Below, piece after piece: positions 8,891 through 26,889 of a stretch of DNA of 64,000 bases (position 1 is its first letter; each line of letters begins with the position of its first letter). The translations under genes were made by a program, and so were the position numbers. Source of the DNA: Methylophaga marina (lineage in GTDB: Bacteria > Pseudomonadota > Gammaproteobacteria > Nitrosococcales > Methylophagaceae); contig NZ_AP027741.1 in the NCBI RefSeq assembly GCF_030296755.1, positions 1,550,001 through 1,614,000 of the forward strand, given 5' to 3'. Under the pieces are notes generated by a model that worked only from the letters and a program-made list of their open reading frames with translations, searched no databases and was not told the origin of the DNA.

Positions 8891-8911
8891 GGTTTTACCC
8901 GTGACTAAGGC

Positions 8912-10960
8912 TTAAAAGAATGAATACGTGGCAGAGATACCGACGTTACGCGCCTCAACAAAGTCTGCATACGCTACCGGGACTCTAGCACCAACAGGTT
9001 CACGAGAACGGCGAGCGCGTTTATCGGTCAGGTTGTTAACAAATGCAGACAACTCCAGATCAGCAATACGATAATTGGCACGTAAGTTTATTAAAGAAAA
9101 ACCGCTGACTTCACGCTCTTTCGTATTTTCTACATCACTGAAATAACCACTGGTGTATTGAATATTACCGCCGAGATCAAAATCATCAGACACATAATAG
9201 GTAGCGGCAAAATTGACCGTTTTATCGGGGGCTGAGTTAAGTTCATTACCATCAAGCCCTGTATAGTCGTCACCAGCATCTTTGATTTCGGTGTGTAATA
9301 AACCGATTCCTAGACGAGTTTGAAGATTATCCGTCACCAAGGCTGTACCCTCTATTTCGGCTCCGTAGGTTTCCACTTTCTTGATATTGTCAATGCGGCG
9401 AAGCGAATTCACACCTTGATAACCATCAAAGTCATTGAAGAACACATTCGCATGGACTTCGTAGCGGTTATCATCAAAGCTGGTGCGAATAAATGCCTCG
9501 TAAGTATCTACTTTTTCTTCGTCAAAGTAGTAATAGGCATTATCCGTTACAGAGAGTGCACCACCGGCAGAGTTATAGCCTTTTACAGCACTGACACCGA
9601 TCCGAGTTTCTGGCGTGATGTCGTATTTCAACGCGACTTTGGGTAGCAAAATCGTATCGTCCTCTTTCAACGTATATGGTAGCCCACCATAAGTAAAATC
9701 ACGCTCTTGAGATTCATCCTGATAACGCAATCCGGTTGTTAAAATTAACTTTTCAGTTAAGCCGAAGTTAAGTTCACTGTATATTGCTTTTGAGTCGGTG
9801 GTGTCGTCACCGTTATAGTCAGCTGAGCCACCGATACTATCGATATCTTGATCACGTTTGTAATAGTCGAGACCGATAAACCCGTTAAAGGCATGGTTAC
9901 CTTCACCAAAATTTAATTTCACATCAATGTTTCTGCTTTTATCATCAATATCCAGATTTTGTGTATCAGCAGGATCCGCTTGATACGTTTCAAACGCATA
10001 TTGGTAGTCTAGTTGAGCCAGCTTGATGTCCAAAGAAGTACTCGTGTTGATTTGATAATGTGCATCAATGCTGTTCATCACACTTTCTGTGTCCATATCA
10101 CGGAAAAAGGTTTTGAAATACGCATCGGTGTCAGTATCTTCAAAATAACGACGGCCTCCATCACCTTTTTCAGTGTATTGAGAGTGAGTGAACATTAACT
10201 CCAAATTATCAGTCGGTGTCCAAAGTAATTTGAAGCGACCTTGTTTGGTATCCAGCTCATTCAAATCAATATTGGTTGGATTACTTTCATAGGGTTCGTT
10301 GCTGGTATCGGTTTGTCCATCAATTAACTGACCAGAAAAACGAAATGCCAATGTATCTTCAATAACAGGACCAGACAGCATGACCGCTTTGTCTATATAG
10401 CGTTCGTTATTACGGTAGCCCAACCTCACTTTACCTTCCCAATCAAACGTTGGATCAGCTGTCTTGATATACATGGCACCAGCGATACTATTACGTCCAT
10501 TATTGGTAGATTGAGGGCCACGGAAGACTTCAATTTGCTCAATATCCCACAAGCCAGAATCACCGACTAAGTCAGCGATAAAAGGTTGGTTAACACCATC
10601 AATCAATGTTGAAAAACGAGCACTGGCTCCACCTGTTACGGCATTAAAGCCACCTGCAGCACCATTACCTAAAACACCTCGAACATTCGCTACAGCACCG
10701 GTTTGTACAACAACATTCGGTACAGAAGAAATAGCATCACGCAAGGTGTGGTATTGGTTTGATTTCAATGCTTCTTGATCAATGACGGAAACGGAAGAAG
10801 CTGTGTCTTTCAGAGTCCGTGTTTGTTTTTCACCTTCAACAGTGATGCTGCCTAACTCAACACGGTTGCTCTGATTTGAGTTGCTGTTTACCGCGTCTTC
10901 AGCAAAGACTTGTGTACTCATACAGGCTGATATTGCGATGGCTAAGATATGTTTGTTCAT
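8912..10960 (-). CDS. TonB-dependent siderophore-type receptor (no STN domain)
   Basis: The product has 682 residues. The start at 10960 (MNKHILAIAISACMSTQVFA signal peptide) has AAGGGG seven bases upstream; an earlier start codon lacks one. The TonB-box region reads LGSITVEGEKQTRTLKDTASSVSV. Plug motifs include DAISSVPNVVV and EQIEVFRGPQSTNNGRNSIAGAMYI. The barrel ends GISATYSFF. The plug pattern is like Fe-siderophore receptors of the FyuA/vibriobactin type. With no STN domain it cannot signal to FecR; instead a divergent AraC regulator and a Fur box sit at its promoter. First gene of a four-gene siderophore operon. Confidence 0.92.
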   Translation of the reverse strand: MNKHILAIAISACMSTQVFAEDAVNSNSNQSNRVELGSITVEGEKQTRTLKDTASSVSVIDQEALKSNQYHTLRDAISSVPNVVVQTGAVANVRGVLGNGAAGGFNAVTGGASARFSTLIDGVNQPFIADLVGDSGLWDIEQIEVFRGPQSTNNGRNSIAGAMYIKTADPTFDWEGKVRLGYRNNERYIDKAVMLSGPVIEDTLAFRFSGQLIDGQTDTSNEPYESNPTNIDLNELDTKQGRFKLLWTPTDNLELMFTHSQYTEKGDGGRRYFEDTDTDAYFKTFFRDMDTESVMNSIDAHYQINTSTSLDIKLAQLDYQYAFETYQADPADTQNLDIDDKSRNIDVKLNFGEGNHAFNGFIGLDYYKRDQDIDSIGGSADYNGDDTTDSKAIYSELNFGLTEKLILTTGLRYQDESQERDFTYGGLPYTLKEDDTILLPKVALKYDITPETRIGVSAVKGYNSAGGALSVTDNAYYYFDEEKVDTYEAFIRTSFDDNRYEVHANVFFNDFDGYQGVNSLRRIDNIKKVETYGAEIEGTALVTDNLQTRLGIGLLHTEIKDAGDDYTGLDGNELNSAPDKTVNFAATYYVSDDFDLGGNIQYTSGYFSDVENTKEREVSGFSLINLRANYRIADLELSAFVNNLTDKRARRSREPVGARVPVAYADFVEARNVGISATYSFF

Positions 10961-11006
10961 AAATCCCCTTAACATTAAGCGTAGATCGATTTTCTTGTTA
11001 TTGTTT

Positions 11007-11025
11007 GTAAATGAAAATCATTATC
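11007..11025. promoter_or_regulatory. Fur box between receptor and AraC regulator
   Basis: GTAAATGAAAATCATTATC matches the Fur consensus at 16 of 19 positions. It continues into CATTATATAATG, so overlapping Fur sites are possible. It lies in the 106-base divergent gap and can control both genes. Confidence 0.88.
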
Positions 11026-11066
11026 ATTATATAATGTGACTATAGAGCAAGTTCCCAAAAAGAGTT

Positions 11067-12179
11067 ATGAGCAAACGTCATAGTGTTATGAAAAATCACC
11101 AGTCAGTCGAAAGCGTGCTATCAAATGATGAAAAAACAGCCCTGACAGTAGCTGAACAGAATGACTATTCACCAAACAAACAAAATAATCAGGTGACAGC
11201 GAGACTGGATAATATGATTTATCTGTCTGAGCTGAATCGAATGAATGTGCGTTATGTCAGCTTTTCAGAAGACAAGGCACAGGATGAAGTCGTTTTAAAA
11301 GGCCTCTTTCATCATCATTTTGATCGGCATGGTCTGTCTGTGCATGCCGGTAACTTAATAGAAATGGCGGATAGAACCAGCTTTGCAGAACTGCCTCCTG
11401 CGATCAGCATGACCATCTTATTTGATGGAAAAGTGTCATTTTCGCTTGGCTCGCAACGTTATCAGCTAGGTTGTCTTGGTGAGGGCCGTGTGGAGTGTTC
11501 CGCTTTTATTATTAATCAACCTGAAATGCTTAGTCGCCGTTTCGAACGCGGTATGCATGTGAATAAACTCAATATATTTATCGAACGACAATGGCTTGAG
11601 GAAAGAGCGACTACACCAGATGAAAAGCAGCATATTCAACAGCTATTTCAAGCTCATGCTGCTTTTTACCATTGGCAAGCTTCTGATGTGGTTGCAAAGC
11701 TGGCCAGTGATTATTTATTTAAAGCTCAACAAACGACTATTCAGGATGAGCTACTGAAAGAGGCGATCATCTTTCAACTGATCGCTGAAAATCTAAAGGT
11801 ACTCACGTCACTTCAACGAACAGAAATGCCACAAAAAACAGATCAACCCTGTGCAACTTCATTACAGGAAAACCAACTAAGACATCAAATTGATGACATG
11901 CTGATGCAATCCATGACCGTTGCAGAAATGGCTTCAGCGATAGGGCTGAGTGTGAGCACCTTACAGCGTAAGTTTAAAACGACCTATGGGATGACGGTGA
12001 ATAACTACTGTCGCCAACGACGTCTGGATATGGCAAAAAAAGCATTATTGGTCGACAAGAAATCCATTGGTGAAGCTGCCTTTATAGCCGGTTATGCTCA
12101 CCCCTCAAACTTTATTACGGCTTTTAAAAAACGCTTCAAACTCACTCCTTCAGAACTGGTTGCCACCATACTGCCGTGA
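11067..12179 (+). CDS. PchR-like AraC-family regulator of siderophore uptake
   Basis: The product has 370 residues. The C-terminal AraC double helix-turn-helix is clear: MTVAEMASAIGLSVSTLQRK followed by IGEAAFIAGYAHPSNFITAF and FKLTPSEL. The N-terminal 250 residues have the PchR layout, including a conserved FHHHFDRHGLSVHAG-type segment and FERGMHVNKLNIFI. PchR proteins bind their ferric siderophore and activate the receptor operon. Divergence from a TonB receptor across a Fur box supports that role. The first 40 residues are poorly conserved; an internal ATG at 11088 is an alternative start. Confidence 0.9.
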   Translation: MSKRHSVMKNHQSVESVLSNDEKTALTVAEQNDYSPNKQNNQVTARLDNMIYLSELNRMNVRYVSFSEDKAQDEVVLKGLFHHHFDRHGLSVHAGNLIEMADRTSFAELPPAISMTILFDGKVSFSLGSQRYQLGCLGEGRVECSAFIINQPEMLSRRFERGMHVNKLNIFIERQWLEERATTPDEKQHIQQLFQAHAAFYHWQASDVVAKLASDYLFKAQQTTIQDELLKEAIIFQLIAENLKVLTSLQRTEMPQKTDQPCATSLQENQLRHQIDDMLMQSMTVAEMASAIGLSVSTLQRKFKTTYGMTVNNYCRQRRLDMAKKALLVDKKSIGEAAFIAGYAHPSNFITAFKKRFKLTPSELVATILP

Positions 12180-12346: not shown

Positions 12347-12365
12347 GATAATGATTCTCGTTAAG
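12347..12365. promoter_or_regulatory. Fur box upstream of orphan fecI
   Basis: GATAATGATTCTCGTTAAG matches 14 of 19 bases of the Fur consensus, with the left arm perfect. It lies 36 bases before the fecI start and implies iron-controlled expression. Confidence 0.78.
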
Positions 12366-12400: not shown

Positions 12401-12907
12401 ATGCGTGCTACACACACAGACACTATTGAAAATCTGTACCTGGAGCACCGTGGTTGGTTGTCGGTCTTTATCCAACGCCGCATGGGGTGTCCTGAAACCA
12501 CCGCCGACCTGATTCAGGATACCTATCTACGAATACTCACGAGTGGTCGATTACCCGAGCAAAAAGATGCCCGTAAATATCTGACGCATATTGCCAAAGG
12601 TCTGGTGATTGATGTATTTCGTCGCCGTCGTGTTGAAGAAGCCTATCTGGAATTTCTGAAACAACAACCGGAGGACACAGCCCATTCGGTTGAAACTCAA
12701 GCATTGATGATAGAAGCCTTAACCCAAATTGATAGCTTATTGCATCGTTTGCCTGCTAATGTGCGTCAAGCCTTATTAATGAGGCAGCTTGATGGCATGA
12801 GCTATAAGGACATTGCTAAACAGTTAAATGTCTCTGTATCCTCAGTGGAAAAATATATCGCCAAAGGTTTGCAGGCATGTCTTGCTACCTCACTCTCATC
12901 AGACTAA
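12401..12907 (+). CDS. FecI-type ECF sigma factor (orphan, no fecR behind it)
   Basis: The product has 168 residues. Region 2 has TTADLIQDTYLRIL and the core IAKGLVIDVFRRRRVEEAYLE. Region 4 has LDGMSYKDIAKQLNVSVSSVEKYI. It has its own Fur box and a strong ribosome site (AAGGGG). No fecR or receptor follows; the gene instead converges on the ybaN-like gene with a 4-base overlap of stop ends. The nearby leftward operon has two fecR genes for one fecI, so I infer that this sigma factor uses one of them. The 3' overlap with the haem operon could give antisense interference. Confidence 0.93.
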   Translation: MRATHTDTIENLYLEHRGWLSVFIQRRMGCPETTADLIQDTYLRILTSGRLPEQKDARKYLTHIAKGLVIDVFRRRRVEEAYLEFLKQQPEDTAHSVETQALMIEALTQIDSLLHRLPANVRQALLMRQLDGMSYKDIAKQLNVSVSSVEKYIAKGLQACLATSLSSD

Positions 12908-13278
12908 CTCGCGATGTTTGATGGTTCTGGTCGGGTGATTAACCAGTACAACACGGCCACCATCATGCTTGAACTCACACATTTCACCCACAGTGGTAGT
13001 CCACTTAAAAATAGCAGATAACAGCTGATTGTCATCGAAACTAACGCTATCACTTTGGCGCGTCGTGGTATGGCTCGGTGTTGCTGCCATTGCTGAATCA
13101 TATAACCAAATCGTGGATGCGCTAATAACCAGCGATGCAATTGTGGCCAGCCTTTTGCCGAACACCAGAGTGCCATCAAGACAAACTCGGTAGTAGGTAA
13201 GCCCGGTAATATCAGGCCTACGAAGGCAATACCGAGAAAAATCAATGCGAAAAGGCGCCACAATAAGGTTATAACCAT
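12904..13278 (-). CDS. YbaN/DUF454 family inner-membrane protein
   Basis: The product has 124 residues with the DUF454 signature: FLGIAFVGLILPGLPTTEFVLMA, then CSAKGWPQLHRWLLAHPRFG, then RRAKVIALVSMTISCYLLF. There are three to four TM helices. DUF454 genes regularly sit beside haem-uptake and haem-oxygenase genes in gammaproteobacteria, and here the gene starts four bases after the haem oxygenase stop. Molecular function is not established. It is the last gene of the leftward haem operon. Confidence 0.9.
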   Translation of the reverse strand: MVITLLWRLFALIFLGIAFVGLILPGLPTTEFVLMALWCSAKGWPQLHRWLLAHPRFGYMIQQWQQHRAIPRRAKVIALVSMTISCYLLFLSGLPLWVKCVSSSMMVAVLYWLITRPEPSNIAS

Positions 13279-13281
13279 GGT

Positions 13282-13890
13282 TTAACTCGCTACAGCATCA
13301 TCTATCATTACATCGTTAACGGCATCAGTGACAAAAATAAAAGCCTGTGTTGCACCCGCTAATGCTTTTTCACGTTGTGCTTGTGTTAACTCAAGTTGAT
13401 CTAACATCGCTTTAAACTGTTTCCAGTGAGTGGCGCGTCCATCCGAGTGTGCTGCCATATGGCTGGCACCAAACGTTTCAGACAAGTTCAGTTGGTTTTT
13501 GACATGTTTGAGTAACATCGCCGCGCCTAGCGTTGAACCTTCAAGCGCGTATAACCAACCAAGGCCTTCATACTCATCTGCGATCTTGATGTAGCTTGCG
13601 ATACGCTGATCTTCTGCGATGAGCGTATTATTTAATTCAACGTCCTCACAGTCTGATAAAACCGCATTAAGACGGCTACGACCACTCAAGTCAGGCAGTA
13701 AGTTTAAGAGCTTGGTATTGTGATAGAGCGGTTCTGCTGCAGTATGCAGACGTAATTGCATACGCAGAAACCCTTGATAATGTTTGCTATCCGCAAATGG
13801 ATTTAGTTGCATCACGCGTTTATCCAGTACTTCATGTAAATCATGTGTTTCGCTGCGTAAAGCATTTGAGAGAGTCAGTTGGTCTGTCAT
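13282..13890 (-). CDS. hemO: Biliverdin-producing haem oxygenase
   Basis: The product has 202 residues. It opens haem to release iron, biliverdin and CO in the cytoplasm. The N-terminal LRSETHDLHEVLD holds the candidate proximal haem-ligand His, and YALEGSTLGAAML is the distal-helix motif of bacterial haem oxygenases of the HemO/BphO type. The ATG at 13890 has AGGA seven bases upstream. It lies at the downstream end of a haemophore/receptor/Slam operon, which makes iron recovery from haem the natural role; no phytochrome gene is nearby to suggest a bilin-chromophore role. Confidence 0.92.
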   Translation of the reverse strand: MTDQLTLSNALRSETHDLHEVLDKRVMQLNPFADSKHYQGFLRMQLRLHTAAEPLYHNTKLLNLLPDLSGRSRLNAVLSDCEDVELNNTLIAEDQRIASYIKIADEYEGLGWLYALEGSTLGAAMLLKHVKNQLNLSETFGASHMAAHSDGRATHWKQFKAMLDQLELTQAQREKALAGATQAFIFVTDAVNDVMIDDAVAS

Positions 13891-13971
13891 CGGTTTATCC
13901 TGTTCATAAAATGTCTGTGTTATTTGATATACCGAAGCAGACGCTGATTTCCGTAATGCAGCAGCTGATTT

Positions 13972-15289
13972 TTAATGAAGTTGTTGTTTAATCTCCTGAA
14001 TGGCTTGATTGTACTGAGCGGCTTTAGCAGGTTTATCCCAAGCGATATAAAGCGACTGTATATTTTGTAAAGCCAGTAGCAGGTTTTCATCTGTTGCAGA
14101 TCGGGTCTTTTGCAAGTTCTCTACGGCGGTGAGAAAAGCCGTTTCGGCTTTAGCAAATTGTCGTTTGTTGTAATACAAAGTGCCGAGATAACCGGCAATG
14201 CCTGCTGCCTCAACAGGTCTTTCCTGCATACTTTGATATAACGCTAAGCTCTGCGATAAAGATGCTTCAGCCGATTTTGTATCATGTGTCGCCAGTTGTA
14301 ACGCGCCGAGATTACCTAAAATGGTGGCTTGCTCAATACTGTGTTCTTTGTTCAATAACTTAAGTTGTGACAAGGCTTGCTGATAATACTGTGCTGCCTG
14401 CTCAAGATGATTTTGCTGCTGTTGGTATAAGCCTAATTCATTGAGCTGCATCACTGTTGCCATCGAGGCGGGGGCATCATTTTGTGCATTGAGATTTTGC
14501 TTTCGGATTGAAGCTGCTTTTTCAGTCTGACCAGATTTGTCATAGGCTATGGCGAGTAAATTCAGTAATTCTGGCAACCGTTCAGCGGTCAGTTTTGATT
14601 CACCATTGAGTTTCTTTTTCATCTGTTCAAGTGAGGTGATGGCTTGATAATACTGCCCCTCTTTTAATTGAATATTAGCAGCTGATAACACTAAATCGCT
14701 TTCTATGGATAAGGGTAATTGAGCACCTGTTTTATCCATTGAGTCGGATAAGGTGGTTGAAACCAGATGTAATGCCTGCTGCTGATTGCCTAGTGAGATC
14801 AGGATTTGCGTCTTTAATAAAATGGCCTGCCACATCTTGCCGTTACCATCACTCTGGCTGAGCTGGAATTGTTCTATCGACTCACCCAACACGCTATCGG
14901 CTTTATTTAGCTGATGATTTTTTTGCAGTAACACGCCCTGATTAAATAATAAGGTGGCGAGCTGTTCATCAGGCGAAGCGGATGCTTTTTTGGCTAAGGT
15001 CACCGCGGTTGATAAGGAGGCCATTGCCTGCTCAGGCTGACCTTTTGCCTCCTGAATAAATGCCAATAGATTGAGGCTGCTGGCTTTGTAGATATCACCA
15101 TTATCAGCTTTTTCAGCACGAGCAATGGCTTTGCGGATGGCTGTTTCAGCGGCTTCATAATTGCCCGCTTGATAGGCGCTGGATGCTTCAGATTGCCATT
15201 TTTGCCATTCATTTTGCTCAGCAGCTTGCACACTTAATGAGCTGAAAACAAGGCAAACCAGTAAGACAAAAAATGGGGGGTATCAACAT
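13972..15289 (-). pseudogene. Secreted tetratricopeptide-repeat protein, frameshifted in the signal peptide
   Basis: About 438 residues of TPR repeats (for example AGNYEAAETAIRKAIARAEK, AAQYYQQALSQLKLLNKEH, AETAFLTAVENLQKTRSATD). The uninterrupted frame can only start at a GTG at 15231 and lacks a signal peptide. Upstream, with a good ribosome site, ATG at 15289 begins MLIPP. Removing one base from the G run at 15275-15280 (plus strand) joins it to FFVLLVCLVFSSLSVQAAE, a textbook signal peptide. I therefore read this as a periplasmic or outer-membrane-associated TPR protein carrying a +1 homopolymer change. It lies between the Slam-like gene and haem oxygenase; its role in haem uptake is unknown. 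Confidence 0.75.
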
Positions 15290-15334
15290 AAATAATCCTA
15301 ATTCTTTTCTGCTTTTGGCTGATTTTAAAGTGGT

Positions 15335-16855
15335 TTAAAACCGCTTTTCCAATTTCAAACTGGTGATATTCCTATCATAGGAATAAAGCCAATTCACATT
15401 GCTATGTACTTTGCGATGCTTGAAGGTAAGGTTTGGTTCCAGCCCATAAAAACTCAGTCCGGGAAACCGCACAATAAGGGTGTAGTTTTGTTCAATATCT
15501 TCACGCTGCTCACCCAGTAAAGCGTTAAATTCATCATGCTTACGTTGACGCACAGAGGTGAAAAGGACGGCATTGATGTTGTCACTAAACTCTTTGGAGA
15601 CACCTGCTCTTATGCCATATTGTTGATAAGCGAAGGGTTCTGTCTCTGCTTCTTTCTTGGTCCAGTCCACCCCGCCAAATAGCGTCCATTGATCAGGGAA
15701 TACATACCAGGCGGTGGCATAAGCTGACCAAATATCACCGTTGTAAGCAGCGTAGTCTTTTTGTCGATATTGCTGATCTTTATAATCGGCTTCAAGTTTA
15801 AACAGCACACGATCGGACACATAATGTAACCACTCACTATGTAGTCCCCAGGCTCCATATATGGATCGATGACCATAACGAGAGAAATCAAAAGACGGTG
15901 CTAGTGAAAATTGATTGCGTTGAGTTTGGTAGCTATAACCGAGCTGTGAGGTAATTTGGCTTTCATTAAAATCAGAGTGGTCTTTGTAACTTTGGCCAAA
16001 TAATAACGAACGAAAAAATAGGCCATGATGACCGGACAAAGCAAATCGTTTATTGAGTGTGGCTTCGTAGTCCAGACCATGTGCTTCCACCGCTTCGGGT
16101 GTCTCGCGTTCGTAAAAACAGACATTACCAAAATAGAGTAAACAACTGTAACTCTCGGATGATTGGTTTAAGTTATCAACCCAGGTGGGACCAATCGAAA
16201 ACGAACCTTGCCAGGACTGACGTTTATCTAACGCCTGCAAAAAACTATCCACTGTGGTGCTAACGCCTTGCTGACGAGCATCGGCGGGATTGAGTGTCTG
16301 TTGAATAGTACTGAATACTTTATCTGAGTCTGCATCTTTTCTGTTCTCAAACAGCACGCGTGCCAGCTCTAACTGACCGGGTAAAAAGTCGGGTTTTAAG
16401 TCGATAAGCTGGCGGTATTCTGATTCTGCCTGTTCCAGATTGCCTTCCATCCGAGCAATAGCGCCCCGGGCATAAGCGAGCAGCATAGGATCTGTATCAG
16501 CAAACTCTTCATATTCTTCTAGAAAAAACTTCACCGATGACCACTGTTTTTTCTGCAATGACACATACAGGGCGCGACCCACATCATTACTGTTGTGCTG
16601 AACAGTATATGACTGACCATCAATGATTAAACTGGGCCGTTCACCTCGCAGATAGTCTTCATCTTTCAGGATTTCCTGCTCTTGTTGATCAGCGCGTAAC
16701 TCAATGCCCTGATTTAAGCGAAGAGACGTGTCTTTATCATCTGCCCAACTGTTCGGACTGGTTAACGATAAAACGGTCAGGCACAAAAACGCTACCCATC
16801 TTGAGGTGGGGTAGTGGTGAGATCGGTATACATCAAACATCATGTTGAAACTCAT
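15335..16855 (-). CDS. Slam (surface lipoprotein assembly modulator, DUF560) protein, HsmA-like
   Basis: About 506 residues: a signal sequence ending NSWA, a periplasmic TPR domain (RMEGNLEQAESEYRQLIDL, LPGQLELARVLFENRKDA), then a 14-strand-type outer-membrane barrel from about residue 210 (FSIGPTWVDNLNQSS) to a final aromatic strand ending LKLEKRF. Slam proteins move specific surface lipoproteins or soluble haemophilins across the outer membrane. The gene follows a haemophilin-like gene and its receptor, the hphA/hsmA arrangement described in Acinetobacter. I place the start at 16855 because the longer frame runs through a terminator hairpin; an ATG at 16843 is also possible. Confidence 0.88.
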   Translation of the reverse strand: MSFNMMFDVYRSHHYPTSRWVAFLCLTVLSLTSPNSWADDKDTSLRLNQGIELRADQQEQEILKDEDYLRGERPSLIIDGQSYTVQHNSNDVGRALYVSLQKKQWSSVKFFLEEYEEFADTDPMLLAYARGAIARMEGNLEQAESEYRQLIDLKPDFLPGQLELARVLFENRKDADSDKVFSTIQQTLNPADARQQGVSTTVDSFLQALDKRQSWQGSFSIGPTWVDNLNQSSESYSCLLYFGNVCFYERETPEAVEAHGLDYEATLNKRFALSGHHGLFFRSLLFGQSYKDHSDFNESQITSQLGYSYQTQRNQFSLAPSFDFSRYGHRSIYGAWGLHSEWLHYVSDRVLFKLEADYKDQQYRQKDYAAYNGDIWSAYATAWYVFPDQWTLFGGVDWTKKEAETEPFAYQQYGIRAGVSKEFSDNINAVLFTSVRQRKHDEFNALLGEQREDIEQNYTLIVRFPGLSFYGLEPNLTFKHRKVHSNVNWLYSYDRNITSLKLEKRF

Positions 16856-16861
16856 GAAAAG

Positions 16862-16891
16862 GAAAAAGCCAGATGCCCGGAAGCATCTGGC
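16862..16891 (-). terminator. Terminator/attenuator between haemophilin-like and Slam genes
   Basis: GCCAGATGC and GCATCTGGC form a 9-bp stem with a 6-base loop; on the minus strand it is followed by TTTTTCC. It lies about 30 bases past the haemophilin-like stop. A leaky terminator here would give much more secreted protein than secretion channel. Confidence 0.82.
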
Positions 16892-16919
16892 CATGTTTCA
16901 TCCTTGAACTAACTAATGA

Positions 16920-17651
16920 TTATTGAGCACCACCAAAAGCAGTGTCATAATCACGGTTAGCAAATTTAGCAATCCCTGCTAAAGCGGCAGCATCTGCACC
17001 ATAGAAGTGACCTTCAGATGTACCAATCGCTGAGCTATTAGCTACAGCGTCACCTGAGAAGCTGGCATCAGCACTATTAATCGAGGCATTGATAGCAATG
17101 CTCAGACCAGTTCGGCTCATTGTTCCAGATAAGTTACCCGTGCCGAAGTTAGCATTCAGCGTTCCGGTCAGTAAGTTAGAGCCGTTGTAATTGTTGATAC
17201 CTTTAACAGTGTAGGCGGCTGTACCAGTGGTTGGCATGGTAGTGTCTGTGTCATCACCAGAGTAGTAGACCACTCGGGTTGGGTCATTTGTGGTGCCATT
17301 TTGTGACCATTCACCGAAATAGATTTCCTGTCCAGCGACCTGAGCAAAGTCAAAATTTCCAAACGCAGCGTGACTTGGAGGCGTCATCGCCGTGGTGATG
17401 GCGTAGATATTGTTCGCATCAACGCTGCCCATTCATTTTAGGCTGGAGAAACCAATCATGGTGCCACCATAGAAAGCATTCACTCCAACACCTGGCGCAC
17501 CTATCGTGCCTGGGTGATCTGGAGATGTACTGGTGGTACCTCCGACGGTGATGGTACCGTCATAGCTTTGACCTGATTCTGTCGCATGAGCCATACCAGT
17601 TAGACCTAAAGCTAAAGCAAGAATTGATAGTTTTTGTACTGTTTTCATCAT
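16920..17651 (-). pseudogene. Haemophilin-like (HphA/TbpB-type barrel) secreted protein with an in-frame TGA
   Basis: Read through one stop this gives about 242 residues. The signal peptide (KLSILALALGLTGMAHA) has no lipobox, so the product should be soluble. The C-terminal half has the Gly/Asn-rich eight-strand barrel of TbpB-like and Slam-dependent proteins: LTGTLNANFGTGNLSGTMS, ADASFSGDAVANS, SEGHFYGADAAALAGIAKF. A TGA at 17433-17435 (after GFSSLK) is followed directly and in frame by ATG GGC, with no ribosome site of its own. The call rests on the fold pattern plus the flanking receptor and Slam genes. Nonsense mutation, base error or readthrough are all possible. Confidence 0.75.
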
Positions 17652-17728
17652 ATTGTCCTCGTATTTAAAAAATAGTTAGTTATTCGGTAACGCTGCTTTT
17701 TTTGAGAAACCACCTCCTTGTTCCATGA

Positions 17729-20700
17729 TTAAAATTTAGCCGTGAGGCTGAGTTTGAATGTGCGCCCCGGGGCGGGAATAGCAGAACGACTCATCGGATC
17801 GATGTAATATTCATTACTGAGATTAGTGCCGGTCAGTTCTACACTGATGTCATCGTTTAACTGGTAGCTGGCATAGGCATCAAATAGCAGAATGGTGTCC
17901 CATGACAGGGGGTATTCGCGTAGTAACTAATGGCTGAAGGATCACGGTAGTTACTTTCAAACTTGTCTTCGTGTTTGTAGTAATAGGTGACACGACTTCC
18001 TAGCTCTAATTTACGATTGAAAAATCGCCCGCCCAGCGTCCAGTTTGCGGTGTATTCCGGCATGGCCATGCTCACCAGATAACCACCGACAAAGCCATCT
18101 TCAACACAATCACTGGTGGATCGATAATCGAGCACAACAGCGGTGGATTCATCACAGACTTCATTTTCGAAGTTATAGGCCAGGCTCAAGTTGGTGAAGA
18201 AACCGCCGTTGTCATAGCGACCCTGAAATTCAATACCTTCCAGCGTTTGTTTCTCCAGGTTACTGAAGTTGAGGTTAGGATCTCGCTCGATAACGTTTTC
18301 AGTGCGGTTATAAAAGTAACTGAGTTTGATATCGGCATAATCCGCATCAAAAAACCCCGCCAGGTTATGAACATAACCCACCTCATAGTTATAAATATGC
18401 TCTGGTTTTAACTCATAATTTGGATTGGGCAGTGAGGCTGAAAAGCTGATGGTATTTTCAAATAAACTGGGGAAACGATAAGCTTGGCTATGGCGAGCAT
18501 AGATACGACTATCATCATTCAGATCCATCGCAACAGACAGAACCGGAGCCCAACCATCACCTTTAAGGTGTTTCACCTTTTTAATGGTTTGCACATTGCC
18601 AATGACTGTCGCTCCGTTAAGACAAGCCGTCACATCAACATCAGCCGTTAAGCAGGGGTGATTATTTCTATAATATTTGCCATCTTTACCGACTTTCCAG
18701 ACCGTTTCCTGTGTGGCAGTTTCAGTAGTGCCGACAGTGTCCTGAATGCCTTGTATAGCTGCATCAACGTCAACACCCAATGACTCCCAAAACGCGCGGC
18801 TATCCTCCCAGCTTTGTATTTGCGGGTCCACATCAGCCTGAGTAATGACTCTGTCATATTCGATATAGATGGTCCTTCCCAAAGTAGGCGCATAACTATT
18901 GAGGCTGGTATTACCCGCATCCAATTGGCTTTTACGAAAATCATCAAACGTCCAGAAAGAGGAATAACGCATGCCGGCATCCACACTAAGAAAGTGTGTG
19001 GGTTTCCAGGCAAAGTTGAAATTCATTTCTTTTTCTTGACGACGTCCAGCTTTGGGATACATTCGGAAGCTACCCGTCGGATCATAACGATCATCAGAAC
19101 GTAATTTTTCATGCTGATAACGGCCGCCCACGGTCAGATCGAGGTTATCCATCAAAGCAAAGGTATTGCTCAAGGTGACACCACGACGATCTTCTTTGGC
19201 ATTTCTTAGTGCTGTATTACGAAGAGTGGTATTACCCGAGGCATTGTTATCATAAGGTTCATTGGGGTAACCACCTGCCGTGTAGGTGTCACTGACGGTA
19301 TCCGTTCTCCAGACACTGGCATACAAATCGACCCAACGATTGGTTTCAGGGTTGAGCTCGTATTCGACGTTATACGCTTTTGCTTTTACTTCACTTAATG
19401 GCCATTGCGGCACACCTTCATCGACAGCTCTTTCCCATGAAATTCGTGACGGGAATATTTCGCCATAGGTAGTGGATGTATCGCGGTAACCAAATGAGAG
19501 GCTGTGGTTATCACTGAATTTGAACTTGGCTTTTGCTAACCAGGATTCCATTTCGCTTGAAGTATTGGGCAGTTCATCCCCTGGCTTATAGATGTTGGCC
19601 ATATCAGGAATCATATTGTCTTGAAGATTATCCGAACCACGAGAGTAGAAACCATCCTGATGTTTCCCTGCAAAATGGTTACCTTTCTTGCGGTAAGCGT
19701 AAGCCCCCATGAGATCAAATGCCTCCTGACGGGTACCAACAGCCAGACGATAAGCATAGTCATCAAAATAGTCTTGCCCACCTGAATGGGGTTCGACATA
19801 GAGCGTTGGATCGTAGATATCACCTTGAGCATTAAAACCGGGAATATCGGTGTAGGACTGGCCACTGGATAAACGTGGCACACTCGCATCGACTGCATTA
19901 TTGCTGCCTTCGAGTTTAAGTTCGCCGCCGAATGCTTCACCTGGTTTTAGGATGTCATCCACACTAAGTGTGCTAGCCACTATGGCACCGCCGATACCGC
20001 TATGAACATTACGTTCAAGGTTGGGGCCTTTTATCGCTTTGATATTACCGATGAGATTAGGGTCGATATAACTTCGGTTATTGGCACCGTTATAACCACG
20101 CCAGATAGTAATTGCCTGTTCAGTGCCATCGATGGTGAGTGGCACACGGCCAGGGCCCTGAATGCCTCGGATATTGGGATCAATACCGCCACTGTTACGG
20201 GCATCGGCGCTGTAAACATTGAGCATGCCACTGAGCATATCGGCGGGTGATGAACCTTTGAATCGCTCTAACTCTTGTTTACCGACATAGGTGCTGGAGA
20301 TGTTTTTATCAAATACATCGTTATAACCAATAGTGTCTTGGGTAAACAGCATCGTGTCACCCACAATGTCGATTTTTCCTAAATCCACACTGCTTTCATC
20401 TTCAGAAAGGCTGAGAGTGGGAACGGGTTCAATACGATAGCTGCCGTCAGGCTGTTGGACGGCGGTTAGCCCAGTACCAGTCAGTAAGGTTTGCAGACCT
20501 TGATGTGGGGTATAGTCACCCACCAAGCCATTGCTGTGTTGATGATTGACCAAAGAGGAGTCAACATATAAAGCAATACCGGCATTGAGGCCAAATTGAC
20601 GTAAGACCTGGTCAAGGCTTCCTGCCGACAAAGAAAAAGACTGAACATCCGTGTTGCTGTCTTGTGCATAAACGTGCTGGCTGACACCGGCAAACAGGCC

Positions 20701-20766
20701 AGTGGCAGCACACATATTAAGCGTGATGAATAGAGTGGGAAGTCGTAAAAAACGACGTAACGGCAT
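17729..20766 (-). pseudogene. HphR-like TonB-dependent haemophore/haem receptor with STN domain, C-terminal frameshift
   Basis: About 1012 residues when corrected. It has a signal peptide, an STN domain (FSLSAGSLDQVLRQFGLNAG), a plug (DMLSGMLNVYSADARNSGG, GNIKAIKGPNLERNVHSGIGG) and a large barrel with long extracellular loops. The open frame runs to a stop at 17857 but lacks a terminal strand. One extra base in the G run at 17908-17912 would restore TPLSWDTILLFDAYASYQLN and an ending LTGTNLSN...PAPGRTFKLSLTAKF, with stop at 17729-17731. The ending, the size, the plug pattern and the next-door haemophilin and Slam genes point to a haemophore or haem receptor. The STN domain predicts signalling to the upstream FecR proteins. 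Confidence 0.85.
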
Positions 20767-20969
20767 GTTTCAGTTCCTTCAGTATTTATTAGTCAGTAAA
20801 AGTGGTTTGTACTTGTAATACCGAACGTGGAATGAAAACCCGTAATAATAATTATTCGCATTAACCGGTTGTTAGACGAGTTGATGTATATGAAGTGATT
20901 ATCCATCTGTTTTAAAAGGGAAATTTAAGCGGGGTGATTAGCTGGAAAAGTCGCTAATGACACAAAAAA

Positions 20970-21920
20970 TTAAGATGTTAAGGGTTTGATTGTGACCCAG
21001 TAGGGGGAGAAGTAACTGACTTTCACCGGCAAAATCTCACTGAGCTGTTCCAGTACTCGATCTGTATCTTGCACAGAAAAAATACCGGTAATCGTTAACC
21101 GTTTGAGTTCCGGACTGACACGAATCATACCCGAGCGGTATCTGGTTAATTGGTGGACAAACTCATCCAGAGGCATATCAGCTACGGCGAGTTTACCCTC
21201 CTGCCATAAGTTGGAGGCGGGATCAGCATGGAACGGCTGAGCGATTTGCACTGCTGAAAAGTTAACACCTTCACCTGCAGGAACAATGGTGTGTATGTTA
21301 GTTGTTTCTGTTGGCGTGATTCTCACTCGACCTTCAAAGACCTTTAACTGTGTTTCTAACTCAGATTGCTGCACATTGAAACGTGTGCCGAGCGGCTCTA
21401 GCAATCCATCCCGGCTAACAATGGTGAGAGGGCGGGGATCTTTACCGGTATCGATCGCGATTTCACCGTAATGCAATATGATTTTGCGTGTGTCGGCATC
21501 ATAATCGACATCAACTTTGCTATTGGTATTCAAGGCCAATGTTGTGCCATCCGTCAGTTGCCAATGACGAATCTCGCCTTTTGCCGTGGCATATCGCGTG
21601 CCAGGCACGGATAAAGGTCCCCAGTGCTGAACACCCATTGCGCCCACCCCCACGCCAATACCGACGACGGTGAGCAGTTGACGACGACTCATACCGGGGC
21701 GATGTTGTAATACCTGACTACCGATACGTCTGTCGGGCACAGCATTGAACTGCTGCTGAAGATTAACAACTTGTTGCCATGCTTTTTGATGGATAGGATC
21801 TGCATCAAGCCAGTCTTGAAAGGCCTGCTTATCCTGCTCAGACACATCATCTGCCCAGAGCCTTGCCGCCCAAACGCAGGCTTGATTGATAGGATCTGAA
21901 TTCGTCAGTGCTTGAGTCAT
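20970..21920 (-). CDS. FecR-family anti-sigma factor (second of a tandem pair)
   Basis: The product has 316 residues. The N-terminal domain has ACVWAARLWADDVSEQDKQAF and AFQDWLDADPIHQKAWQQV. A twin-arginine-like MSRRQLLTVVG begins the single membrane segment (about residues 78-100). The periplasmic part has LTDGTTLALNTNSKVDVDYD and ITGIFSVQDTDRVLEQLSEI. The ATG at 21920 overlaps the upstream fecR stop (ATGA), so the longer frame is rejected. It directly precedes the haemophore-type receptor, after about 200 bases, which makes it the likely partner of that receptor. Confidence 0.93.
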   Translation of the reverse strand: MTQALTNSDPINQACVWAARLWADDVSEQDKQAFQDWLDADPIHQKAWQQVVNLQQQFNAVPDRRIGSQVLQHRPGMSRRQLLTVVGIGVGVGAMGVQHWGPLSVPGTRYATAKGEIRHWQLTDGTTLALNTNSKVDVDYDADTRKIILHYGEIAIDTGKDPRPLTIVSRDGLLEPLGTRFNVQQSELETQLKVFEGRVRITPTETTNIHTIVPAGEGVNFSAVQIAQPFHADPASNLWQEGKLAVADMPLDEFVHQLTRYRSGMIRVSPELKRLTITGIFSVQDTDRVLEQLSEILPVKVSYFSPYWVTIKPLTS

Positions 21921-22885
21921 AAAGCACGGTCTCTTGGAACAACCGTCACCCAATAACGTGTGCGAGACTGAATAGACACGGGCAGCGCTTGTGCCATTTG
22001 TTGCAAGGCTTTATCAGTATCATTAAGTGGAAAAACGCCACTGACTTTGAGATCAGCAACCGTTGCATCACAGCGTAAAATGCCGGAACGATAGCGTGAT
22101 AACTCATGAATAAATTCAGACACGGGCATTTGCTCTGCTACCAGCTTATGCTGTGTCCAACTGGTGATGGCAGGGTCCGCTTTAACGGCTTTTGCTAACT
22201 CAAGTTGATTAAACCGAATCCTTTCGCCCGCATTTAAGGTGAGTTTTTGTTGTACCTGATGGATTAACACGCTGTCCTGAACCACGGTAACTTCGGTTGA
22301 ATCAGCATTTTGTCGGACATTAAATTGTGTGCCTAGGGCCTCAATTTTCCCTTCAGCTGTCACCACAATAAATGGCTGACCAGCAAACTCAGCTGCATGA
22401 CCCGTGGTAATAAACACTTCACCGTGTTTGAGATGAATCAGACGTTGTTTGCCATTAAACACAACATCAATAGCTGTATCGGTATTGAGTCGAAGATGAC
22501 TGCCATCGGCTAACTGCACATCACGCGTTTCACCGATACTAGTGCTGTAATCAGACATCGCCTGTTGCCATAGTTGTGTTTTTTGCAGGCCATAGCCCAC
22601 ACTGGCAGAGCCGATGAATATTCCGACCCACTGTAAGAACTGACGACGACTACTGGCCGGTGTTGAAGTGAGTAAGGTACTGTTGGCAGCATGTTCTGGA
22701 AGGCGATCAAAACGTTCAGCCATGGACGCTAAAATTTGCCAGGCTTTTTCATGCTCCGGGTTTTGCTGACGCCAGTGTTCACAAGCTTGTTTATCTTCCA
22801 GACTGGCATCATCTGCCCAGAGCCTAGCCATCCACGCAGCAGCTGTGTCGATGATATCGGGTTGTGGATGTGAAGAAGAACTCAT
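21917..22885 (-). CDS. FecR-family anti-sigma factor (first of a tandem pair)
   Basis: The product has 322 residues with the same plan as its neighbour: TAAAWMARLWADDASLEDKQ, a KAWQILASMAERFD helix, the twin-arginine-like SSRRQFLQWVG at the membrane segment, LADGSHLRLNTDTAIDVVF, and VSGVFPLNDTDKALQQMAQ. It overlaps both the fecI stop and the next fecR start by ATGA, so the three are translationally coupled. Two fecR genes behind one fecI is unusual; the pair are clear paralogues, probably a tandem duplication that has diverged. Confidence 0.93.
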   Translation of the reverse strand: MSSSSHPQPDIIDTAAAWMARLWADDASLEDKQACEHWRQQNPEHEKAWQILASMAERFDRLPEHAANSTLLTSTPASSRRQFLQWVGIFIGSASVGYGLQKTQLWQQAMSDYSTSIGETRDVQLADGSHLRLNTDTAIDVVFNGKQRLIHLKHGEVFITTGHAAEFAGQPFIVVTAEGKIEALGTQFNVRQNADSTEVTVVQDSVLIHQVQQKLTLNAGERIRFNQLELAKAVKADPAITSWTQHKLVAEQMPVSEFIHELSRYRSGILRCDATVADLKVSGVFPLNDTDKALQQMAQALPVSIQSRTRYWVTVVPRDRAL

Positions 22886-23382
22886 GATGATGCTTTCAAA
22901 CTATGGAGATAACAGGCTGCTAATGCCTTAGCTACATACTTTTCTACAGAAGACACAGACACATTCATCTTCGTGGCAATCTCTTTGTAACTCAGGCCGT
23001 CCAGCTTCCTCATCAAAAAAGCCTGACGCACATGCGTAGGTAAGGCTTGCAGCATCTGGTCAATTTCCAACAAGGTTTCTACCACAATGTGTTGGGTTTC
23101 TTCACTGGGGATCTCTTGTTCTGGAAGATGGCGAATAGTTTCCAGATAAGCCGCTTCAATTTGCCGACGACGAAATAAATCAATCATCAGGCTTTTGGCG
23201 ATACGTGTCAGATAGCGTCGCGGCTGATCATCTGTTGGCAGTGAGTTAGAAAGCATCACTTTGAGGTAAGTATCGTGAGCGATATCAGCGGCACTGTGTT
23301 CACATCCCAAACGGCCACGTAGCCAGCGATGTAACCAGCTATGGTGCTCACGATATAAGGTGTCGATATTGTGTTGAGACAT
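22882..23382 (-). CDS. FecI-type ECF sigma factor heading the haem-uptake operon
   Basis: The product has 166 residues. Region 2: SAADIAHDTYLKVML and IAKSLMIDLFRRRQIEAAYLE. Region 4: LDGLSYKEIATKMNVSVSSVEKYVAKAL. It is the first gene of the leftward operon and has a strong Fur box 26-44 bases upstream. By family knowledge it would direct RNA polymerase to the receptor promoters when FecR is signalled. It diverges from the FpvA-like receptor gene across 256 bases, so it could serve that receptor too. Confidence 0.94.
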   Translation of the reverse strand: MSQHNIDTLYREHHSWLHRWLRGRLGCEHSAADIAHDTYLKVMLSNSLPTDDQPRRYLTRIAKSLMIDLFRRRQIEAAYLETIRHLPEQEIPSEETQHIVVETLLEIDQMLQALPTHVRQAFLMRKLDGLSYKEIATKMNVSVSSVEKYVAKALAACYLHSLKASS

Positions 23383-23407
23383 GAGTAGAAAACAATGACT
23401 TACATTT

Positions 23408-23426
23408 GATAATGAGATACATTATC
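23408..23426. promoter_or_regulatory. Fur box upstream of haem-operon fecI
   Basis: GATAATGAGATACATTATC matches 16 of 19 consensus bases with both arms intact. It lies in the divergent gap, close to the fecI start and about 210 bases from the FpvA-like receptor. Confidence 0.9.
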
Positions 23427-23638: not shown

Positions 23639-26041
23639 ATGTCCTACCTGAAAACATCACGTCCACATCGACACGTATTTAAAACCTTGCCTCTCAGCAT
23701 GATGATGGCTGTGGCTATTGGTTCAGCTGTTGTTACTACACCTTTCCAAGTTCATGCTGAAAATGTTCAGGCCACTACACAGGCCTTTAATATTCCGGCT
23801 GGGCCACTTGATCAAGTGCTTAATCGCTTTGCTTTGGCTGCGAATATCGATCTGTCAGTGAACTCACAAATCACAGCCAATAAACGCAGCCGGGGTCTGG
23901 ATTCCACTGTTGATGTGCAAACGGGCTTACAGCGCTTGTTATCACCGCATGGCTTGGTCGCCGTTAAAACATCAGCAACCAGCTATACCGTTAAACAAAT
24001 CACAGATGGCTCAGAAGACGGTGTAGATTTACCCGTGGTCAACATTGATGCTGAAGGCATGAGAGAAACAGCCACAAGTTCAGTGGACGGCTATTTAGCC
24101 ACACGCAGTGCCTCAGCCACGAAAACCGATACTCCACTAATTGAAACACCTCGCTCTGTAACAGTGGTAACCGCTGATCAAATTAAAGATCGCAAAGTGC
24201 AAACCGTTGAAGATGCCGTGGCCTATGCTGCGGGTGTTCAAATAGGTGGTTCGGGTTATGACCCACGCTTTGATCAGATTACGATTCGTGGATATGAAGT
24301 GACGACCAATGCTGATTATCGTGATGGTTTACGTCAAACCAACACCGGCTGGTTATCGTATTTCAGAACTGAACCCTATGGTTTGGAGCGTATTGAAGTC
24401 GTGAAAGGGCCTGACTCTGTTTTATTCGGGCAGATCAGCCCTGGTGGATTGGTCAACCGTGTTAGCAAACGCCCCACAACAGAAACCATTCGCGAAGTAG
24501 AAATTCAAGCGGGAACGGATGACCACTATCAAGGCCAATTTGATTTTGCCGGTAAATTGGGGGAAACCAATGAGTGGACCTATCGTGTAGTCGGCTTGGC
24601 CCGTAACAGTGATTCCGATATCCGCGGTGTGATTGATGATAATGTCTACTTCGCACCATCTCTCACATGGCGTCCTAATGACGATACCAGCCTGACATTG
24701 TTAGCTCAGCGTCAACGTTATGAAACAGCAGGGTCCCCACGTCCATTCCAGCTACCTTCTGGTGAACTGACGGATTTCTGGTCGGGTGATGAAGACTTCG
24801 ACAAGCTTCTCCAAACACAAACCTCTATTGGCTATGAGTTTGAACATCGCTTCAATGACACATTCACCGTCAGACAAAACGCCAGATATAGCTATATTGA
24901 TACTACCAATCAATACACAAGTTCATCATTAGATGCGGATGGTCATACACTCAACCGTACAGCAACGGGCGTTTATGAAGATATGCACAACACCGCCATT
25001 GATACCGCCGTGGAAAGTCATTTTTCCACCGGTCAGCTGACGCATACATTACTCACCGGTTTGGATTTTTATCAGGTTAATAGCCGAGTGAAATATGCCT
25101 ATGGCGATGCACTATCAATAGATATGTGGAATCCGGATTACCATCAATCTATTGCTAAGCCATCCACACTGTACTCATTCGGTAATACCCAAACGGAAAG
25201 TGAACAGTTTGGTCTGTATGTGCAGGACCAGATCAGTATCGACAAATGGCGTGTGACGTTAGGGCTGCGTCATGATTGGGTGGATAAAGACTCATACAAT
25301 TACTTCAGTGGTATTTGGACAGACATAGATGATGAAAAAACCACGGGTAGTGCCGGTGTGTTGTATGCATTTGATAACGGTATTAGCCCATACATCAGCT
25401 ATGCAACGTCATACATTGCACAGTTTAGTACCAATGCTTACGGCTCAAACTACAAACCAACAGAAGGCGAGCAGTGGGAAGCGGGGATTAAATACCAGCC
25501 AGTCGGCTATCAGAGTTTCTTCACGGCCAGCGTGTTTAACTTGATTGAAAGCAATGTGCTGACACAAGATCCTAACAACATTAACAATAGCATTCAGAAA
25601 GGCGAACGCCGTGTCCAAGGCTTGGAGTTAGAAGCCAATATGAACTTTGATTTTGGCCTGAACCTAGTGGCGAGCTATACCTATCAAGACGCCAAAATCA
25701 CCGAAAGTAATGACGGTGATGAAGGGAATCAATTTACTGGTGTGCCAAGACATCTCGCTTCCTTCTGGGGTAACTATGATGTGACCCATGACCTGCAAGC
25801 TGGATTAGGTGTCCGTTATGTAGGTGAGTCATACAGCAATACACAAAATACCGATAAAAATGAATCTTACTCGATTGTAGAAGCAAGAACGTCTTATAGT
25901 CTGGATCAGTGGGTGAGGGGAGCAACACTTGCTGTGAATGCCTCTAACTTGTTCGATAAAGAATATGAGGTGTGTGAAGCTGGCTACTGCTATCGAGGCA
26001 TCGGTCGTAAAGTCATCGCCAGCTTTAACTACAACTGGTAA
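23639..26041 (+). CDS. FpvA/FoxA-like TonB-dependent siderophore receptor with STN domain
   Basis: The product has 800 residues: a signal peptide ending QVHA, an STN domain (FNIPAGPLDQVLNRFALAAN, about residues 48-115), a TonB-box region, a plug with SVTVVTADQIKDRKVQTVED and ERIEVVKGPDSVLFGQISPG, and a barrel ending KVIASFNYNW. The plug is typical of ferric hydroxamate and pyoverdine receptors. The frame is intact. The STN domain implies a FecR partner, but none lies next to it except across the divergent promoter. It is followed after five bases by an esterase-like gene, suggesting one transcript for uptake and hydrolysis of the same siderophore. Confidence 0.93.
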   Translation: MSYLKTSRPHRHVFKTLPLSMMMAVAIGSAVVTTPFQVHAENVQATTQAFNIPAGPLDQVLNRFALAANIDLSVNSQITANKRSRGLDSTVDVQTGLQRLLSPHGLVAVKTSATSYTVKQITDGSEDGVDLPVVNIDAEGMRETATSSVDGYLATRSASATKTDTPLIETPRSVTVVTADQIKDRKVQTVEDAVAYAAGVQIGGSGYDPRFDQITIRGYEVTTNADYRDGLRQTNTGWLSYFRTEPYGLERIEVVKGPDSVLFGQISPGGLVNRVSKRPTTETIREVEIQAGTDDHYQGQFDFAGKLGETNEWTYRVVGLARNSDSDIRGVIDDNVYFAPSLTWRPNDDTSLTLLAQRQRYETAGSPRPFQLPSGELTDFWSGDEDFDKLLQTQTSIGYEFEHRFNDTFTVRQNARYSYIDTTNQYTSSSLDADGHTLNRTATGVYEDMHNTAIDTAVESHFSTGQLTHTLLTGLDFYQVNSRVKYAYGDALSIDMWNPDYHQSIAKPSTLYSFGNTQTESEQFGLYVQDQISIDKWRVTLGLRHDWVDKDSYNYFSGIWTDIDDEKTTGSAGVLYAFDNGISPYISYATSYIAQFSTNAYGSNYKPTEGEQWEAGIKYQPVGYQSFFTASVFNLIESNVLTQDPNNINNSIQKGERRVQGLELEANMNFDFGLNLVASYTYQDAKITESNDGDEGNQFTGVPRHLASFWGNYDVTHDLQAGLGVRYVGESYSNTQNTDKNESYSIVEARTSYSLDQWVRGATLAVNASNLFDKEYEVCEAGYCYRGIGRKVIASFNYNW

Positions 26042-26046
26042 GTCCG

Positions 26047-26889
26047 ATGTTGAGATTAAGACACATACTTAGATTTCTCATCATCATATGCTGCTACCTG
26101 CCTTTGCAGGTAGTGGCTCAGTCGGTTTCATTACCAGCCACTGAGCAGTTCACCCTAAAAAACAAAGCAGGGCAGGAGTATCAGATCATGGTGAGTTTGC
26201 CTGAAAGCCAAACGCCCAGCAAACCGATGCCAGTGCTATACATTTTAGATGGTAACTCCGTGTTTGCTGCTTTTCATGATGCCAAACGAATGGAATCAGA
26301 CTATGCCGACACATTGATTGTGGCGGTAGCGTACTCAACAGATGAGCCATTTGATTTTTATCGACGTTCTTATGACTTTTCACCGCCTGTGCCCAAAGAA
26401 GTGAATGACCCACCTCAAGGTGGTCAGGACGAATTTATCGACTTCTTAAAAAACACCTTACAGCCTGAAATCGCTCGTCGTTATGACATTCACCAAGAAC
26501 GGCAATCATTATATGGTCATTCTTTCGGTGGCATGTTCACACTCTATGCGATTTACACCCAGCCAACCTTATTTCAACATTACATCGTTTCCAGCCCCAG
26601 CCTGTGGTGGGCACATCGCTATCTGATGCCGCATGAGCAAATGTTTATGAAACAAGTGAAAGCAGGTGAAGTATCACTGGTCGATAAAAGCCTGTATCTG
26701 CTGGTGGCAGAGGGCGATGATGTGCAGGAACGGCAGGATATTGAACTGCTGGCAGACCGAATGAAAGCCCTGTCGGCCTATGGTTTCCGAAGTGCCTATT
26801 ACCTCCAAGAAGACGAAGACCATATGTCCTTACCCATCACCATTGCTCATCGTGTTTTACGACAAGCGTTTAATCCAAGGCTTCGTTAA
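26047..26889 (+). CDS. Secreted/periplasmic alpha/beta hydrolase, putative siderophore esterase
   Basis: The product has 280 residues, PF00756 esterase type: an N-terminal signal anchor, MPVLYILDGNSVFAAF, the nucleophile elbow YGHSFGGMFTLYA (Ser about residue 160), the acid region EGDDVQERQD, and a final His (DEDHMSLP). This is the plan of IroE and BesA-like ferri-siderophore hydrolases. A signal peptide puts it in the periplasm, like IroE. Five-base spacing to the receptor supports a role in releasing iron from an imported ester-type siderophore. A general esterase remains possible. Confidence 0.85.
   Translation: MLRLRHILRFLIIICCYLPLQVVAQSVSLPATEQFTLKNKAGQEYQIMVSLPESQTPSKPMPVLYILDGNSVFAAFHDAKRMESDYADTLIVAVAYSTDEPFDFYRRSYDFSPPVPKEVNDPPQGGQDEFIDFLKNTLQPEIARRYDIHQERQSLYGHSFGGMFTLYAIYTQPTLFQHYIVSSPSLWWAHRYLMPHEQMFMKQVKAGEVSLVDKSLYLLVAEGDDVQERQDIELLADRMKALSAYGFRSAYYLQEDEDHMSLPITIAHRVLRQAFNPRLR

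Follow-up and report, generated by a model that had tools for sequence, protein, structure and literature searches.

A predicted hemophilin/Slam haem-uptake cluster with a separated FecI/FecR pair in Methylophaga marina

Hemophilin systems have been characterized in bacteria associated with animals. The subject here is a hemophilin (hph) cluster from Methylophaga marina, found in a 64-kb stretch of DNA (contig NZ_AP027741.1, positions 1,550,001 to 1,614,000) that is called the window below. Coordinates are positions within the window unless another locus is named, and the genome that contains it, G000, is one contig of 3.11 Mb. The closest described system is the hemO cluster of Acinetobacter baumannii, which has the order sigma factor-FecR-hphR-hphA-hsmA-TonB-hemO-ybaN in its sequence record, with the same list in a table within the available part of PMC10483418. 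The receptor, the hemophilin, the Slam translocator, the haem oxygenase, and YbaN occur in the same order in both organisms. The identities of the A. baumannii proteins to the alleles of the Methylophaga metagenome-assembled genome (MAG) SAT92 (G058) are 43% for HphR, 42% for HphA, 45% for Slam, 32% for haem oxygenase, and 35% for YbaN. The A. baumannii cluster also starts with its own extracytoplasmic function (ECF) sigma factor and FecR, so these signalling genes are not an addition special to the Methylophaga locus, as a sequence-only reading of the window had proposed. There are differences as well. The sigma factor and FecR genes are together at the head of the A. baumannii cluster, while the Methylophaga sigma factor gene is convergent and at the far end. 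A TonB gene stands where Methylophaga has a tetratricopeptide repeat (TPR) gene, and the sigma/FecR pairs of the two organisms are not sisters in phylogenetic trees.

Other described systems share parts of this arrangement. The plasmid hph locus of Pseudoalteromonas sp. KG3 has HphR, HphA, and Slam, and its FecI and FecR are sisters to the Methylophaga regulators FecI2 and FecR2. However, its fecI and fecR genes are adjacent and follow slam, its haem oxygenase, YbaN, TonB, and ExbBD genes form a separate opposed run, and no TPR gene was found in it. In Serratia a hemophore (HasA), an STN-containing receptor (HasR), a sigma factor (HasI), and an anti-sigma factor (HasS) are encoded in one operon, and HasA is exported by the inner-membrane proteins HasD and HasE, not by Slam (PMC9249621, available part). 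HasA is unrelated to hemophilin by the searches made here. Haem oxygenase and DUF454 are near type XI secretion system (T11SS) genes in 137 and 118, respectively, of 1,111 cluster-1 neighbourhoods, according to the available text of PMC12282271. Thus the type of system is already known, and FecI/FecR genes beside it are known in gene lists too. Among the papers listed in the literature searches, none reports a hemophilin in Methylophaga or a tested sigma/FecR pair from a hemophilin cluster.

Judged by its sequence, the Methylophaga locus is a genuine hemophilin/Slam (T11SS) haem-uptake cluster. It represents a variant form of the A. baumannii cluster: the FecI2/FecR2 switch is split, two promoter-like sites match each other, and a TPR protein bound to the lineage is present. 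The genes run leftward in the order fecI1-fecR1-fecR2-hphR-hphA-slam-tpr-hemO-ybaN, and the convergent fecI2 on the plus strand meets the end of this run. Eight hph loci were compared, all from Methylophaga: the window, G004, G058, G022, G014 (M. aminisulfidivorans), G011 (M. lonarensis), G020, and G007. The segment fecR2-hphR-hphA-slam-tpr-hemO-ybaN and the convergent fecI2 are kept in all of them. Presence, absence, and motif counts were made on 24 Methylophaga genomes, 8 with the cluster and 16 without it; seven of the 24 are less than 90% complete or more than 5% contaminated. Domains were assigned with Pfam at scores over its cut-offs, and this confirmed the content first listed for the run, namely a fecI, two fecR genes, an STN-containing TonB receptor, an HphA-type protein, a Slam barrel, a TPR protein, haem oxygenase, and YbaN/DUF454. 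The idea that it is a relative of the hphA-hphR-hsmA-hemO system in another lineage is supported. Coupling of the genes by ATGA overlaps holds only for fecI1/fecR1 and fecR1/fecR2. It fails elsewhere, with gaps of 203 bp between fecR2 and hphR and 81 bp between tpr and hemO, each of which holds a promoter-like site.

The protein encoded by hphA (16920-17651, minus strand, with an in-frame TGA at 17433-17435) is related to hemophilins over both of its domains. The haem domain HphA_N scores 2.3e-23 (over the cut-off) in the intact allele L003, which is 98% identical to the window HphA, and 3.1e-14 in the 170-codon part of the window gene alone. The C-terminal eight-stranded barrel matches HphA_C (1.6e-24) and TbpB_B_D (1.1e-07), and L003 matches solved hemophilins down to an E value of 1.5e-45. 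These results uphold, at the sequence level, the earlier assignment of a TbpB/HphA barrel. The protein had also been described as secreted and without a lipobox, and its signal peptide indeed contains no cysteine, as expected of an unlipidated protein. The haem ligands of A. baumannii HphA are H43 and H106 (PMC8560813, available part). They correspond to the histidines of SHPG and PPSH motifs, numbered 42 and 105 in the protein of the sequence record, and align with His46 and His94 of L003. The second histidine is present in all eight Methylophaga sequences and the first in seven, that of M. lonarensis being one column off. An AlphaFold model made from the eight aligned rows reached a predicted local distance difference test score (pLDDT) of only 35, and membership in the fold rests on sequence. 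The hphA gene is mosaic: at 17000-17750 the window is 83-88% identical to SAT92, which is of the same species, and 93% identical to the HyVt-380 MAG. Along the locus the window and SAT92 are about 87-100% identical, and the stretches beside hphA are mostly at 94% or more. Because identity to SAT92 drops at hphA while identity to HyVt-380 is 93% there, the pattern suggests that the hemophore gene has undergone allele exchange.

The other proteins of the cluster are also those expected of a hemophilin system. hphR (17857-20766, minus strand) encodes a TonB-dependent haem/hemophore receptor with STN signalling, Plug, and barrel domains, and HasR is its nearest solved structure when an intact relative is used as the query. 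The slam gene (15335-16894, minus strand) encodes an HsmA-like T11SS outer-membrane translocator. Its SlipAM barrel is matched over the full length (1.1e-55) and is preceded by an N-terminal TPR_Slam domain (1.6e-25), showing that the barrel protein has the Slam core and is not a plain porin; it is the sole SlipAM match in G000. hemO (13282-13890, minus strand) encodes a haem oxygenase (Heme_oxygenase, 1.7e-21) that matches the solved HemO of N. meningitidis, and ybaN (12904-13278, minus strand) encodes a DUF454 inner-membrane protein (2e-35). Between ybaN and fecI2 there is an ExbB-ExbD-TonB set in G020 by Pfam, and similar genes were seen by eye in G007 and G011; the group to which the window belongs lacks this set. 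In Vibrio sp. THAF190c, two tandem genes for 459-residue proteins with identical first 60 residues lie between the hemophilin receptor and hphA (L088, 4720-7590).

The regulatory genes form two adjoining FecI/FecR systems, of which FecI2/FecR2 is the one inherited with hph. The sequence-only reading overlooked the second, convergent fecI, which starts at 12401 on the plus strand, and described a single fecI with a doubled FecR as a feature of one system. fecI1 (22882-23382, minus strand) encodes an ECF sigma factor with Sigma70_r2 and r4_2 domains and a FecI subfamily score over the cut-off, and it overlaps its partner fecR1 (21917-22885, minus strand; FecR, DUF4880). fecR2 (20970-21920, minus strand) encodes a second FecR-type regulator with FecR and DUF4880, and fecI2 (12401-12907, plus strand) encodes an ECF sigma factor by Pfam. 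Thus the cell-surface signalling parts, comprising sigma regions 2 and 4, FecR with DUF4880, and the receptor STN domain, are all over the Pfam cut-offs. Unlike the usual adjacent sigma and FecR genes of the known loci above, fecI2 and fecR2 are about 8 kb apart, and they are on opposite strands in all eight loci.

The first system has its own receptor. Adjoining fecI1 on the plus strand (23639-26889) are genes for a siderophore receptor (23639-26041) and an esterase (26047-26889). The receptor is over the cut-off for the TonB-siderophore type, and it scores best against ferrioxamine B and ferrichrome receptors, without reaching the cut-offs for these. fecI1-fecR1 with the divergent receptor and esterase stand in front of hph in four of the eight loci (the window, G004, G058, and G022) and not in the other four (G014, G011, G020, and G007). 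In G007 the fecI1-fecR1-receptor-esterase genes are a run of their own near 191-196 kb, at least 0.6 Mb from the hph locus at 2.66 Mb. In G014 a deletion removed the fecI1-fecR1 module and left an esterase stump. The scar of this deletion is at about 4770-4975 of L002, where a Fur-like box and the first fecI1 codons precede fecR2 and the esterase is truncated.

Phylogenetic trees of 20 rows each were made for FecI and FecR, with five FecR rows beginning two codons inside the gene. FecI2 from all eight loci and the sigma factor of the Pseudoalteromonas hph locus form one clade (support 100/100), and FecR2 from the same loci forms a matching clade with the FecR beside that sigma factor (98/97). 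FecI1 and FecR1 fall outside these clades. From gene order and phylogeny, FecI1/FecR1 belong with the divergent siderophore receptor and not with hph. FecI2 is likely to be the partner of FecR2 and the sigma factor of the hph operon, since the trees mirror each other and four of the eight loci hold only FecI2/FecR2.

Putative control sites are found at both systems. Fur-like boxes were scored against a 19-position consensus, and the background was 2000 stretches of 200 bp taken at random from the window. The box before fecI1-fecR1-fecR2 (23408-23426, minus strand) matches at 15 of 19 positions, in agreement with the Fur box noted earlier at the head of the run, and 23 of the 2000 background stretches reach 15 or more. 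The box before fecI2 (12347-12365, plus strand) matches at 14 of 19, a score reached or exceeded by 58 background stretches, and is weak alone. The contig of G020 ends there, placing it outside the comparison of these boxes across loci. The sequences upstream of hphR have in common TTACGGRTTT-N8-CRTTCGGTAT. A motif search with a wider form, TTACGGRWWT-N10-TTCGGTAT, gave 16 exact sites: every one of the eight genomes that have hph has two, and the 16 that lack hph have none. One site of each pair is before hphR (20818-20845 in the window, minus strand) and the other precedes hemO, in the tpr-hemO gap (13929-13956, minus strand). In a Vibrio plasmid hph locus there are two sites, one exact and the other, before an ExbB-like gene, with a single mismatch. 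Upstream of hphR in Pseudoalteromonas, TTCGGTAT is present and the upstream half of the motif is weaker. From the co-occurrence of FecI2 and the motif, we infer that FecI2 reads this promoter-like sequence.

Gene content, homology, conserved ligands, co-inheritance, mirrored trees, and a shared motif make it quite probable that the cluster is a Fur-controlled, haem-responsive hemophilin system with a FecI2/FecR2 switch. Secretion, haem binding, signalling, promoter activity, and the role of the TPR protein are predicted from these features. In this model fecI2 and fecR2 would be made under Fur control when iron is short. Slam would carry HphA, which has a signal peptide and is unlipidated, across the outer membrane. 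HphA would bind haem through its two histidine ligands and pass it to HphR, and the haem oxygenase would then free the iron. The STN domain of HphR would signal through FecR2 to FecI2, which would transcribe two units, hphR-hphA-slam-tpr and hemO-ybaN, from one motif. FecI1/FecR1 would serve the adjoining siderophore receptor, and the TPR protein would act in the periplasm as a soluble accessory, with HphA or Slam as its simplest candidate partner.

Several observations weigh against this model. In this assembly hphA contains a stop codon and hphR and tpr contain frameshifts. No inner-membrane haem permease was found within the cluster; G000 has FecCD-type permeases at two distant places. Because fecR2 overlaps fecR1 by ATGA, it is probably co-transcribed with the fecI1-fecR1 system. 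The sigma/FecR pairs of A. baumannii and Novosphingobium are outside the FecI2/FecR2 clades, on long branches, and this rules out one regulator conserved in all hemophilin loci. With one mismatch allowed, the motif has a single site each in three of the 16 genomes without hph (G009, G012, and G013), and a reversed-pattern control has one match each in 4 of the 24 genomes. The motif was not found at the expected places in the hph loci of V. campbellii and Novosphingobium, and A. baumannii has only a looser version.

The broken genes could be true pseudogenes of a system that is decaying in this strain, although this seems the less probable explanation. The window hphA is not one open frame; it has 72 codons, the TGA, and 170 codons. 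The "242-residue product" described earlier is therefore interrupted, and the stop and both frameshifts had been overlooked. hphR has a frameshift near 17908, with the usual barrel end and C-terminus in another frame down to 17732, and the frameshift in tpr is between the signal peptide and the body. Among the seven related loci hphA and tpr are intact in all and hphR in six; the hphR of M. lonarensis is likewise split over two frames (L005, 7040-7120). In favour of decay, three genes are broken here and two more in another TonB receptor system of the window, and hphA alone among 303 orthologues carries an internal stop within one frame. These orthologues come from a protein-level comparison of 464 kb around the window (G000:C1:1350001-1814000) with 464 kb of G014. 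In it 46 of 303 genes are split over frames in G000 versus 4 of 298 in the reverse direction, and 9 of the 46 are at 95% identity or more, which argues for assembly indels; hphR is among the 46, and tpr was not counted, its break being too near the start. About one single-frame stop per 300 genes also occurs in the control genome (1 of 298). Given the excess of split genes, the frameshifts are probably errors that are a general trait of the G000 assembly, those in hphR and tpr included. The hphA stop may be real, because a single-frame stop does not fit the indel pattern. With hphA, hphR, and tpr reading as broken, the strain possibly lacks a working system. Stop-codon read-through of hphA was set aside, since the position is a sense codon in all seven relatives. 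Frame-changing indels were also counted at the nucleotide level (71 of 277 genes versus 44 of 274 in the opposite direction), but at 75-95% identity this count had too much noise, and the protein-level count was used in its place. The nucleotide count did not bear out the idea that the indels lie in homopolymers, most affected runs having length 1.

Control of the hph operon by FecI1 acting with both FecR proteins, or by FecI1 and FecI2 together, is unlikely. It would account for the ATGA-overlapped fecI1-fecR1-fecR2 genes under one Fur-like box just before hphR. However, half of the loci keep hph without fecI1 or fecR1, the G014 deletion left just a fecI1 stump before fecR2, and FecI1 falls outside the clade that contains the Pseudoalteromonas hph sigma factor. 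It is very improbable that the secreted protein binds a ligand other than haem: T11SS cargo is diverse and includes cobalt and other cargo (PMC12282271, available part), but HphA has the HphA_N haem domain, both histidine ligands are present in seven of eight sequences, haem oxygenase is in all eight loci, and the receptor is structurally nearest to HasR.

The TPR protein sets the Methylophaga cluster apart from the hph loci compared from other genera. The gene (13972-15231, minus strand; TPR_12) has its signal peptide upstream in another frame, with an ATG at 15289-15287. Of the 24 Methylophaga genomes, the 8 that have HphR also have this gene and the other 16 lack it, so that it is all-or-none with the cluster. 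Among 369 gammaproteobacterial genomes the window's own was the single match at an E value of 1e-25, and the gene was absent from all five hph loci of other genera. Intact copies have an apparent signal peptide without a lipobox cysteine by eye, supporting the proposal of an added periplasmic partner. The structure model is a confident all-helical TPR fold (pLDDT 87.6), and its matches are generic TPR superhelices such as OGT and LGN, which are uninformative on function. A tentative suggestion, with the odds against it, is that the protein is a dedicated periplasmic T11SS accessory that holds apo-hemophilin or delivers it to Slam, and that the split FecI2/FecR2 switch co-expresses it with its cargo from one of the two matching promoters. 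If so, it would be the accessory sought by the A. baumannii authors, who ask for work on chaperones that would hold HphA in an inactive state until it is exported.

Iron-related genes take up most of the first 27 kb of the window. A third fecI-fecR-TonB receptor system is at 1346-5354 on the plus strand, with fecI and the receptor each split over two frames; both are intact in G058, G014, and G022. The stretch next to the hph locus, at 5862-12179, encodes an AraC regulator, a further TonB receptor, and proteins of the PNPOx-like and PepSY_TM types. Near DNA matches to plasmid sequences were sought and none were found.

The analysis has implications for reading such loci and for the biology of the genus. 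When only one genome is read, two neighbouring FecI/FecR systems can be taken for a single system in which FecR is doubled, and the many indels in the G000 assembly would mislead gene calling. The hemophilin cluster is patchily carried in a marine methylotroph genus, in 8 of 24 genomes. Its regulatory layout offers a direct candidate pairing of a sigma factor with promoters, namely FecI2 and the two sites that each genome has, and the TPR protein may have a part in how apo-hemophilin is handled before export.

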